Below are positions 33,451 to 37,198 of a stretch of 51,138 bases of DNA, one piece after another; within the stretch, counting starts at the first letter, position 1; each line of letters opens with the position of its first letter. This DNA comes from Agathobacter sp. (GTDB lineage: Bacteria; Bacillota; Clostridia; Lachnospirales; Lachnospiraceae): positions 1 through 51,138 of the forward strand of contig JALEPP010000100.1 of NCBI GenBank assembly GCA_022767075.1, given 5' to 3'. A program made the translations under genes and the position numbers. Under the pieces are notes generated by a model that was given only the letters and a program-made list of their open reading frames with translations, was not told the DNA's origin and did not search any database.

Positions 33451-34437
33451 TTATCTAGATCTTTTCTGAATACGAATATCGTCCCCCGACAATTTCATTA
33501 TGGTATAGTTGCTGGATATGCGAGAAAAAGTACGTTCAGAATAGGTGTCGACAATTCTACCCATATCAAGATTGGTAGAGATAATTGTGGACTTCTGACG
33601 CAATATCCTTTCATTGATGATTAAGAATAATTGTGACGTTGTAAATTTATTAGACAACTCAGTGCCTAAATCATCAATAATGAGCAGGTCACAATCAAAG
33701 ATATTTTGATGGGCTGCAATAGCATCCGCATCATGCTCAAAAATTCCCTTGCTTAATATATCAAATAATTCAAAGGCTGTAAAGTAAATAACCGAATATC
33801 CCCGGTCCAGAAGTTCTTTGGCTACACAGTTGGATAAAAAGGTCTTTCCAACACCTGTATTGCCGAAAAAGAAAAGGTTTTGCGGCTTATGCTCGAAGTT
33901 CTCAATAAAAGCCCTGGATTTATTAACAGCGTCTTTAAAGGTGTCCAAATCAGAAAGCCCGGTAATGGGATTTTTGTTGGTGTCTGAGTAGTATTCGTAG
34001 GAAAGGGTAGAGAAGTTCTCCTTTTCCAATATGGAACGAATATTGGACTGGGCGTAAACGGTGTTGATGATTGCCTGCTTGAAGCAGTGGCACTTGGTAC
34101 CAAGATCATCTACGTAACCGGTATCCTTACAATCCTTGCAGTTGTAAATTGGGTCAAAATAGCCCTCCGGATAGGGCAGGGAGGCAAGGATAGCCTGTCT
34201 TTCTTCCCGAAGGTCTGCCAGCTGCTTTTTTAGGGAATCAAGAGCCGTCCGGTCTCCATCCAAAAGCTTTCGGGCCTGAGCTACAGAGATAGAAGCAATG
34301 GAACCCTCAATCTCCTGTAGCCTTGGGTTCTCGGCAAAGGCCTTCTCCAAGCGTTTCTGTTGGGTGTTCTGATTATGAAGTTGAATGGCGTCATAATTGC
34401 GACGGATTTCATCGTACTGGGCGTTGGTAAGAGCCAT
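33451..34437 (-). CDS. ATP-binding protein, DnaC/DnaI-like helicase loader
   Basis: CKDCKDTGYV; NLFFFGNTGVGKTFLSNCVAKELLDRGYSVIYFTAFELFD; LLIIDDLGTE. Confidence 0.88.
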   Translation of the reverse strand: MALTNAQYDEIRRNYDAIQLHNQNTQQKRLEKAFAENPRLQEIEGSIASISVAQARKLLDGDRTALDSLKKQLADLREERQAILASLPYPEGYFDPIYNCKDCKDTGYVDDLGTKCHCFKQAIINTVYAQSNIRSILEKENFSTLSYEYYSDTNKNPITGLSDLDTFKDAVNKSRAFIENFEHKPQNLFFFGNTGVGKTFLSNCVAKELLDRGYSVIYFTAFELFDILSKGIFEHDADAIAAHQNIFDCDLLIIDDLGTELSNKFTTSQLFLIINERILRQKSTIISTNLDMGRIVDTYSERTFSRISSNYTIMKLSGDDIRIQKRSR

Positions 34438-34452
34438 ATCCTTCTCCTTATG

Positions 34453-35541
34453 TTAGGACTGCACAGAGGTGGTTAGTAGCATTTTCTCCATCTCTGTATA
34501 GTCATAATTGCGATGTTCAAAATTGTTGAAACGATTCTTAGGGGTAGAATCTACAGCGTTCACTGTGGCCTTGACATTTTTCTGGTTAACAAAATTGGTA
34601 TCCAGCTTTTCCACATCCTGAATGGTATGTACCTTGTTGTCGAACCAGGTGGTCAGTATTTTGTCTGCATAGGCAAAGCTAGGCTGATGAATGGCGGCCA
34701 TGGTTCTGTTGCAAGCCTCAGCAATAAGCTCTGTATCGAAGGCAAATTCCGATGACCATTTCTTGATAAAATTGGTCTCGTCAGCAACCAGGTTGCGTCC
34801 CGTAATCCCAAAGGCCTTCATGACAGCGTAGTAAACCTTGCTGTGAGCCTGAGCATCCTCTCTGGCTCTGGCTACAGTGGTGATACCGCTTTCCTTCCAT
34901 CCAAGGGCAACCTTGTCCATATAGCGGATGCTGGAATGTCCTTTGCTGATGCAATACTCTACCATGTATTCAATCAGGTCTGTGCCAAAGCCCAGGACAT
35001 CATACCAGAATAATACGGTATTGAGGTCGTTGCTGCTAAGAGGATGCTTCAGGTAGGTCTCCATAATAAATACAAGCTCTGAAATATTAGGGTTCTTCTG
35101 GAACTCCATAATTTCGTCTGCGGTGTAGGATTTTCTCTCCGCCGTAACCTCTGACGGAGGAACAGCCTTTGCTCGAGGCTGCTTTGGTGCACTTTCCTTT
35201 CCTTTCGCGTCAGAAGAGCCGGAAGCATTATGACTGCTGTGATCTCCATATGGAGAAATCAGATGTATGCCACTGATGTCTCCGGAGGATGTCCTGTCTA
35301 AGGTGATAAGCTTGTTTTTCTCCCAGTAGTTCAATGCACGTATTACATCCTTTTCCGTTTGCTCAAAAAGGTCGGCAATCCCGGAAAGAGAAATTGGAAG
35401 GTGGGCCCCAAAGGCACGTAATAAGTACAGATATATTTTTACGAATTCCCCGTTGGAACAGGGCATAATGGAATCAATAAAATAATTCGAAACAAGTGTA
35501 TTGTCCGGTAAAACTTCACTGGACAGTGCAATGGTTGTCAT
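34453..35541 (-). CDS. DnaD domain-containing replication protein
   Basis: DnaD-like C-terminal segment and genomic pairing with the DnaI-like gene. Confidence 0.8.
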   Translation of the reverse strand: MTTIALSSEVLPDNTLVSNYFIDSIMPCSNGEFVKIYLYLLRAFGAHLPISLSGIADLFEQTEKDVIRALNYWEKNKLITLDRTSSGDISGIHLISPYGDHSSHNASGSSDAKGKESAPKQPRAKAVPPSEVTAERKSYTADEIMEFQKNPNISELVFIMETYLKHPLSSNDLNTVLFWYDVLGFGTDLIEYMVEYCISKGHSSIRYMDKVALGWKESGITTVARAREDAQAHSKVYYAVMKAFGITGRNLVADETNFIKKWSSEFAFDTELIAEACNRTMAAIHQPSFAYADKILTTWFDNKVHTIQDVEKLDTNFVNQKNVKATVNAVDSTPKNRFNNFEHRNYDYTEMEKMLLTTSVQS

Positions 35542-35573: not shown

Positions 35574-35602
35574 ATTATAGCACACAAAGAGCAGTGTGAA
35601 AA
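35574..35602 (-). promoter_or_regulatory. candidate promoter of the dnaD-like operon
   Basis: Minus strand TATAAT with weak -35 TTTTCA at 17-nt spacing. Confidence 0.45.
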
Positions 35603-35648
35603 GGACACCCCCTATTGGAAAACTTGACGTTCATAATTCACGAAAAAT

Positions 35649-35809
35649 TGTGGATAATGTGGATAAATGGGAAAAAGAGCTGGAAAAATGTAAGGTTTAC
35701 AAGGATTTCGACAAAAGTTGACATGTGGATAACTGTGGAAAAGTTCCACAAAAAAATCCACATGGTTTCCGACAAAAAAAGTGGGAAACTATGTGGATAA
35801 CGTGGATAA
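35649..35809 (-). promoter_or_regulatory. DnaA-box cluster (4 perfect TTATCCACA and 1 single-mismatch box)
   Basis: TGTGGATAA on + strand at 35649-35657, 35658-35666, 35724-35732, 35792-35800; CGTGGATAA at 35801-35809. Confidence 0.8.
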
Positions 35810-37198
35810 CTATTTACCAAGAAGAGATTCGCCGATTTCTACAACGTTTCCGGCTCCCATGGTTATCAACAGGTCGCCGTTCATACAATTTTTTAATAAA
35901 AATTTTTCAATCTCTTCAAAAGAAGGAAAATAATAGGCCTGGGTGCCCTTTTCCTTTAACTTGGCTAGCAAATCCCTGGAGGTGATACCGTAGGTATTCT
36001 TTTCCCGGGCTGCATAGATGTCCGCAAGGATAACCAGATCTGCCATGGAAAGGACATCGGCAAACTCCTGCAAAAATGCCTTTGTTCTGGAATAAGTGTG
36101 TGGCTGGAATACTAACACAAGACGTTTGTGCGGGTAATTCCTTGCAGCGCTCAGGGTGGCATGGATCTCTGTTGGGTGATGTGCATAGTCGTCAATGATT
36201 GTGACTCCGTCTACGACTCCCTTGTACTGGAATCTGCGTTCGGCACCACCAAATTTGGCAAGGCCGGCAATGACAGCTGTGTGGTCCAGCTTCATCTCCT
36301 CTGATAAGGCAACCGATGCGAGAGCGTTTGATACATTGTGCGTTCCCGGAACATTGAGAGATATCTCCATGAGCTTTTGGCCGTGGGTCATAATAGTAAA
36401 GCTTGGGCAGGCCTTTTCGTTGTAGGAAATGTCGGTGGCATAAAAATCACATTCAGAAGATAGACCGTATGTAATCACCTTGCATGGGACATCGGATACC
36501 AGCTCCTTGTAATCCGGAATCTCCCCGTTGATGATAATGGCACCATCTTCCTTTACGTTGTGTGCAAATCTATGGAAGGAATTGCGCACATCGGCTAAAT
36601 CCTTGAAGAAATCCAGGTGCTCTGCCTCTGCGTTAAGAATGACAGCATATTTTGGATAAAAATGCAGGAAGCTGTTGGTGTATTCACAGGCTTCCGTGAT
36701 AAAGTGTTCAGAACCGCCGACGCGAATATTTCCTTGAATGGCCGGCATAATTCCTCCGACACTGATGGTTGGATCCGATTTCGCCTCCAAAAGAATCTGA
36801 CTCATCATGGAGGTGGTGGTTGTCTTTCCATGGGTGCCTGAGATTGCGATGGAGGATTGGTAGTTCTCCATAATCTGTCCCAGAAGCTCTGCCCTGGTAA
36901 GCATTGGAATTCCCATGGTTTTGGCTGCTAAAAATTCCGGGTTGTCATCTCGGATTGCTGCGGTGTAAACAACTAAATCAAGATCCGCTGTAATATTCTC
37001 TGCCTTTTGTCCATATAAAATAGAGATGCCTTTTGCGGAGAGTTCTCTTGTATAATCGGATTCCTTGTTGTCAGAACCGGAAATGGTGAAGCCTTCTGTA
37101 TGAAGGATATCGGCAAGGCCGCTCATGCTGACGCCTCCGATACCCATGAAGTAAACATGAATCGGGCATTTAAAATCTATTTGATACATAGTACGCAT
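35810..37198 (-). CDS. murC: UDP-N-acetylmuramate--L-alanine ligase
   Basis: VYFMGIGGVSMSGLADIL; ISGTHGKTTTTSMM; IIDDYAHHPTEI. Confidence 0.96.
   Translation of the reverse strand: MRTMYQIDFKCPIHVYFMGIGGVSMSGLADILHTEGFTISGSDNKESDYTRELSAKGISILYGQKAENITADLDLVVYTAAIRDDNPEFLAAKTMGIPMLTRAELLGQIMENYQSSIAISGTHGKTTTTSMMSQILLEAKSDPTISVGGIMPAIQGNIRVGGSEHFITEACEYTNSFLHFYPKYAVILNAEAEHLDFFKDLADVRNSFHRFAHNVKEDGAIIINGEIPDYKELVSDVPCKVITYGLSSECDFYATDISYNEKACPSFTIMTHGQKLMEISLNVPGTHNVSNALASVALSEEMKLDHTAVIAGLAKFGGAERRFQYKGVVDGVTIIDDYAHHPTEIHATLSAARNYPHKRLVLVFQPHTYSRTKAFLQEFADVLSMADLVILADIYAAREKNTYGITSRDLLAKLKEKGTQAYYFPSFEEIEKFLLKNCMNGDLLITMGAGNVVEIGESLLGK

Follow-up and report, generated by a model that had tools for sequence, protein, structure and literature searches.

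Tandem DnaA boxes in helical phase with the promoter of a helicase-loader operon in Lachnospiraceae: a probable module of transcriptional control

The locus between murC and the helicase-loader genes

The window considered here, the whole 51,138-nt stretch of DNA that was analysed, comes from a genome which we assign to the Agathobacter/Roseburia-type Lachnospiraceae because its closest named loci are those of Roseburia faecis, R. inulinivorans, R. hominis and Agathobacter species. In an intergenic gap of this window, between murC and a two-gene dnaD(dnaB)-dnaC(dnaI) helicase-loader operon, lies a cluster of DnaA boxes. The initial annotation of the DNA had described the downstream genes as an operon of dnaD/dnaI type, and both domain and family matches agree with this: the first gene encodes two DnaB_2/DnaD domains and is the sole member of its family in each of nine genomes searched, while the second, an AAA+ helicase loader, is followed by a PRPP-synthetase-like gene. 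The combination of two DnaB_2 domains with a DnaI-type partner presumably recalls the dnaB-dnaI gene pair of B. subtilis. The gene for DnaA itself is absent from the window and was not found in the 83.7%-complete assembly. The features of the locus are as follows.

33451..34437, minus strand: dnaC/dnaI-type AAA+ helicase-loader gene (NF005304, weaker matches to DnaC/DnaI models, IstB/DnaA ATPase)
34453..35541, minus strand: dnaD/dnaB-type helicase-loading gene, two DnaB_2/DnaD domains (PF07261, E 2.9e-38; TIGR01446)
35574..35602, minus strand: dnaD promoter, with a weak -35 (TTTTCA), a 17-bp spacer and an extended -10, TGTGCTATAAT (sequence and conservation in the genus)
35649..35666, minus strand: pair 2, formed by two exact boxes that abut; TATAAT lies 87 bp downstream of its first base
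35724..35732, minus strand: extra exact box TTATCCACA, not conserved in relatives
35734..35742, minus strand: extra box TTTTCCACA, not conserved in relatives
35749..35800, minus strand: intrinsic-terminator-like murC hairpin with T-run (fold -27 kcal/mol, z -6.8)
35792..35800, minus strand: pair 1, second box TTATCCACA, doubling as the 5' arm of the murC terminator hairpin
35801..35809, minus strand: first box of pair 1, TTATCCACG, directly adjoining the stop codon of murC
35810..37198, minus strand: murC, immediately upstream of the cluster
35863..35871, plus strand: reverse-oriented box-like TTATCAACA inside the 3' end of murC, reading TGTTGATAA in the murC sense (codon conservation)

The initial annotation had listed four exact boxes and one with a single mismatch, all in one orientation, with two abutting head-to-tail pairs at the ends of the cluster. 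All five are present on the minus strand, the exact TTATCCACA copies at 35649-35657, 35658-35666, 35724-35732 and 35792-35800 and the mismatched TTATCCACG at 35801-35809, as are the pairs at 35649-35666 (pair 2) and 35792-35809 (pair 1), but the list had missed both TTTTCCACA at 35734-35742, which has one mismatch and the same orientation as the other five, and TTATCAACA at 35863-35871 on the plus strand. The 161 bp from 35649 to 35809 hence contain six boxes with at most one mismatch, all pointing along the transcription of the downstream operon. Over the whole window there are 32 matches with at most one mismatch, compared with 16.4 +/- 4.3 in shuffled sequences, none of 100 shuffles reaching the observed number. 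A genome-wide count gives 44 exact boxes in the 2.12 Mb of the assembly by pattern search, and the 161-bp cluster lies far above chance, the probability of four exact boxes in a given 161 bp being ~5e-12 and that genome-wide ~1e-5.

The middle boxes (35724-35742), lacking conservation in relatives, were dropped as part of the module. Also within the cluster are the Spo0A-box-like sequences TTTTGTCGAAA and TTTTGTCGGAAA (minus strand, 35706-35716 and 35766-35777), apparently not conserved in the genus alignment.

Conservation of the two pairs

Among 36 relatives of the same genus a dnaD match was found in 35, for 34 of which the upstream region was also present. Nearly all of these 34 have two tandem pairs in the same orientation, an abutting one at the murC stop and another that precedes the promoter, with one of the two degenerate or missing in some members. 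A further 100 loci were collected, 80 by DnaD similarity and 20 by pattern; murC lies upstream in 96 of them, most of which show the two-pair plan as well; some retain one clear pair only, and in several genera pair 2 is expanded to a triplet. Within a pair the boxes abut, with 0 bp between them, at almost all loci. This sample is partly biased toward DnaD similarity and is phylogenetically related, a dependence handled only by counting changes on a tree and by sampling one genome per genus. In the latter survey (150 family genomes, one per genus and, except for the genome under study, at least 90% complete) the strict pattern of murC element followed by tandem pair recurs in about half of the Lachnospiraceae genera (79 of 150), with a few matches outside murC. 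Of the other families sampled in the order, about half retain recognisable boxes. A stricter, exact pattern has no match in ~186 genomes of the class outside the order, an absence to be taken as provisional because this version finds only part of the true cases. Absence of the cluster from this locus in related species would, by the initial annotation, have counted against its interpretation; the paired boxes are present across the genus and much of the family.

Helical phasing with the dnaD promoter

The strongest evidence comes from the spacing of the boxes. Within the genus the extended -10, TGTGCTATAAT, is nearly invariant, and the hexamer 17 bp upstream of it is in most loci TTCTCA, TTCTCT or TTCCAT, that is, a weak -35. 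Pair 2 lies upstream of the extended -10 and neither pair overlaps the core promoter. The distance from the first base of pair 2 to TATAAT takes the values 77, 86-88 or 97-98 bp in the genus, and in one genome (L033), in which the murC-side pair alone remains, this pair stands 107 bp before TATAAT. Similarly, a gapped-pattern search of 397 family genomes, one per genus, in which the range was set at 68-128 bp and the phase left free, returned 75-78, 85-89 and 96-97 bp, together with single values of 109, 114 and 127 bp. When measured from the promoter-proximal box to the -10, the distance is 57-59, 66-69, 76-80, 86-89 or 97-100 bp in 98 of 101 deduplicated loci; the five classes (near 58, 68, 78, 88 and 99 bp) cover ~45% of the positions in the range. 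The vector strength is ~0.9 near a period of 10.2 bp, a value reached by none of 500-2000 smoothed null sets, whereas the control distance from TATAAT to the start codon in the same loci has no periodicity (R 0.19, P 0.22). Because the arrays themselves have a 9-bp period, clean doubles were examined separately; these fall mostly at 77-80 versus 88-89 bp, a step of 10-11 bp and not of 9. On a tree of the DnaD protein (a quick tree with some weak nodes) the register changed at least 14 times among the clean doubles and 21 times overall. The box array is thus helically phased with the dnaD promoter and, with TATAAT taken as -12 to -7, occupies one helix face at roughly -70 to -110, a functional geometry for a regulated promoter. 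In a literature search largely without subscription papers we found no published example of helical phasing of DnaA boxes.

The two pairs are also in phase with each other. The distances between them cluster near 87, 98-100, 109-112, 120, 141-143, 152-157 and 162-169 bp, with a period of 11.05-11.2 bp and R of 0.6-0.7. This period is in the range of the helical repeat of 11.1-11.6 bp obtained from in vivo looping fits for the Lac repressor (PMC1762422).

In relatives (e.g. L045 and L056) a hyphenated palindrome, AAACCCTTGATTTTACTGGGTTT, occurs between pair 2 and the dnaD promoter, in both orientations. As a candidate second operator it was set aside, since in some genomes it is present at several other genomic places and in the window it is degenerate (35603-35648).

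A constrained element within murC

The reverse-oriented TTATCAACA at the 3' end of murC is read through by the coding sequence as TGTTGATAA, and its Leu and Ile codons are TTG and ATA, respectively, in 35 of 35 genus genomes each, although these two codons are in the minority wherever else in murC a Leu or Ile is conserved. In the relatives from the order that have no tandem pairs (L081, L086 and L089) the element is missing too. Because the synonymous codons are fixed and the element is missing where the tandem pairs are missing, it is, to judge by its codons, a nucleotide-level element frozen at synonymous sites. It differs from the DnaA consensus at position 6 and for this reason can be put forward only as a possible DnaA site.

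Proposed control of the loader operon by DnaA

Boxes that match the DnaA consensus TTATNCACA (PMC4447404), that lie beside a promoter in numbers above chance, that are conserved and that keep a geometry relative to the promoter, in this case helical phasing with the -10, have the attributes of a DnaA-regulated promoter. The cluster is therefore best read, from its sequence, as what is probably a cis-regulatory module by which DnaA controls transcription of dnaD(dnaB)-dnaC(dnaI). The DnaA-responsive control of helicase-loading genes, one of two readings inferred in the initial annotation, is strongly supported by comparison, through the conservation at the same locus, the phasing of the array with the promoter and of the pairs with each other, and the frozen murC element.

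We infer DnaA as the binding protein, together with the loop and the sign of regulation described below. DnaA would occupy pair 2, some 70-110 bp ahead of the transcription start and on a fixed helix face relative to RNA polymerase, as well as pair 1 and perhaps the reverse element at the murC 3' end. The two pairs keep a common phase, as though a DnaA-DnaA loop, mostly of 90-170 bp, joined them, and the dnaD promoter could then be activated when active DnaA is plentiful. We incline slightly towards activation over repression because pair 2 is clear of the core promoter and the -35 is weak. An upstream position of -70 to -110 is typical both of activators that touch RNA polymerase and of looped repressors.

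Repression of the loop type, in which DnaA at pair 1, the murC element and pair 2 would turn the loader genes down when active DnaA is abundant, is the main alternative and, although we give it less than an even chance, has to be taken seriously. Two phased sites flanking ~90-170 bp with a period of 11.05-11.2 bp are what such a loop would use, and in B. subtilis DnaA directly represses several operons (PMC4447404). Against this, both pairs lie outside the promoter, whose -35 is weak, as at activated promoters, and in some relatives one clear pair stands alone.

Control of the operon by DnaA could be one part of a wider arrangement. We suggest, tentatively, that the Lachnospiraceae may possess a DnaA regulon centred on the helicase-loader operon, with 0-bp double boxes on a fixed helix face, a bridge to the murC-side double box and a feedback loop between the initiator and its interacting loader proteins; if so, both the target and the 0-bp box geometry would be new for DnaA. 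Since B. subtilis DnaB and DnaD contact domain I of DnaA (PMC13326638) and DnaD inhibits DnaA cooperativity (PMC13220808), product feedback by DnaB/DnaD on the dnaD promoter is also conceivable by analogy.

Relation to known DnaA systems

In B. subtilis DnaA is a known activator and repressor, whose direct targets do not include dnaD or dnaB-dnaI (PMC8203912). The DnaA-regulated promoters of this organism likewise have TTATNCACA clusters beside the promoter, outside or near oriC, from which DnaA activates (as at sda) or represses (PMC8203912, PMC4447404), but none of these targets is a helicase-loader operon, and phasing like that of the murC-dnaD locus was not found in the literature consulted. 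The E. coli double boxes are similarly paired at regulated promoters, with DnaA binding as a dimer; E. coli DnaA, however, prefers 2-3 bp between the boxes (PMC11317965), whereas in nearly all murC-dnaD loci there are 0 bp, such that these pairs are not double boxes of the E. coli type, spaced by 2 or 3 bp. The Caulobacter DnaA regulon, which includes the dnaB helicase gene and dnaQ, also links DnaA to helicase-related supply, but Caulobacter belongs to another phylum and the target is the gene for the helicase, not a loader operon (PMC8203912).

DnaA is already known as a regulator, and the proposed phased helicase-loader module is a Lachnospiraceae feature for which we found no published description; nothing relevant on DnaA boxes in Lachnospiraceae emerged from a literature search made largely without subscription papers. 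DnaA has been recognised as a transcription factor in a few model species, and the Lachnospiraceae are a dominant gut family. Again and again during evolution the array has shifted along the DNA with respect to the promoter, by whole helical turns; sharp predictions follow from this, and the matching of loader supply to initiator activity becomes testable in culturable commensals such as Roseburia.

Other explanations for the boxes

The cluster could instead serve to titrate or inactivate DnaA, in the manner of the B. subtilis clusters or of E. coli datA, with no part in dnaD regulation. It is a dense set of exact boxes, and in B. subtilis, according to PMC13220808, there are six DnaA-box clusters outside oriC (Okumura 2012), the joint deletion of which leads to early initiation. 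That source discusses these clusters as oriC-proximal titration sites, whereas the murC-dnaD cluster is phased with a promoter and has no tie to oriC. Titration depends on position relative to oriC, yet in three genomes the site follows the operon at 46, 404 and 726 kb from dnaA, neither near to oriC nor at a fixed position relative to it as a datA-like element would be; titration moreover needs neither promoter phasing nor a conserved orientation and leaves the constant association with the operon at differing distances from oriC unexplained. We consider it unlikely.

That a different protein with a DnaA-like target reads the sites is a slim prospect. The abutting 0-bp geometry is unusual for DnaA and the murC element is off consensus at position 6, but the boxes are exact DnaA consensus and the same 9-mer surrounds dnaA in these genomes. 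A second conserved array also bears on the question. Tandem pairs are rare elsewhere in these genomes, the recurring other site being TTATNCACG-NAG-TTATNCACN-TTATCCACA, which adjoins an NlpC/P60 endopeptidase gene (G000:C169:5992-6021, loci L153 and L286; further loci L142, L143, L145, L147-L150 and L274-L289). It occurs in 16 of 150 family genomes. In the genus under study it lies upstream of wecG/tagA-type, YitT, PucR-like and FtsE-like (ABC ATPase) genes. An NlpC/P60 gene is within the examined flank at 9 of the 15 other loci, most of which have different genes downstream or none that the flank reaches. Because position 5 of this array is free, as in TTATNCACA, it supports DnaA as the reader of these sites. 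The 0-bp double boxes may be suggested as a motif with which to look for a wider DnaA regulon. One more tandem pair, accompanied by TTATTCACA, was observed at an ORF's 3' end, with another ORF on that strand just beyond it (G000:C108:355-383, L152); in the searched relatives no such pair was seen at a comparable locus.

There is a very small chance that the boxes result from nothing more than the terminator of murC and the constraint on its coding sequence. The murC stop codon is followed by a GC-containing hairpin and a T-run, as in an intrinsic terminator, and in 82 of the 109 loci carrying pair 1 the second box of this pair forms the 5' arm of the same hairpin. This terminator role accounts for part of the conservation of that box. 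The hairpin, though real, covers that box alone and includes neither its partner in pair 1 nor any part of pair 2, and the murC coding element is frozen at synonymous sites. The sister families keep boxes without the hairpin, so the boxes are not merely a terminator, and the pure terminator reading was rejected. The shared hairpin arm allows an interplay between the predicted binding of DnaA and murC termination. In several genera (L154, L159, L167, L213, L221, L232 and L075) another box-like TTATCAACA lies a short spacer beyond pair 1, within the region of the hairpin.

Finally, several DnaA boxes near helicase-loading genes might bring to mind a second or cryptic chromosomal origin, a reading with practically no probability, which was rejected because the GC skew does not switch at the locus and dnaA is distant, with no adjacent dnaA/dnaN. 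The initial annotation had placed the cluster away from dnaA, and beyond the lack of this gene in the window the two complete relatives of the same genus, in which dnaA is at position 1, have the murC-dnaD locus 404 kb and 726 kb away. In the complete relative G035 the skew, taken over 20 sampled pieces, stays above zero from position 0 up to ~1.6 Mb and below zero from ~1.7 Mb through to the end, such that it switches at dnaA and keeps one sign across the locus, with no switch at 2.866 Mb. Pair 2 is not followed by a DnaA-trio-like TAG run, and the oriC-type boxes of these genomes adjoin dnaA, around which they are clustered without abutting.
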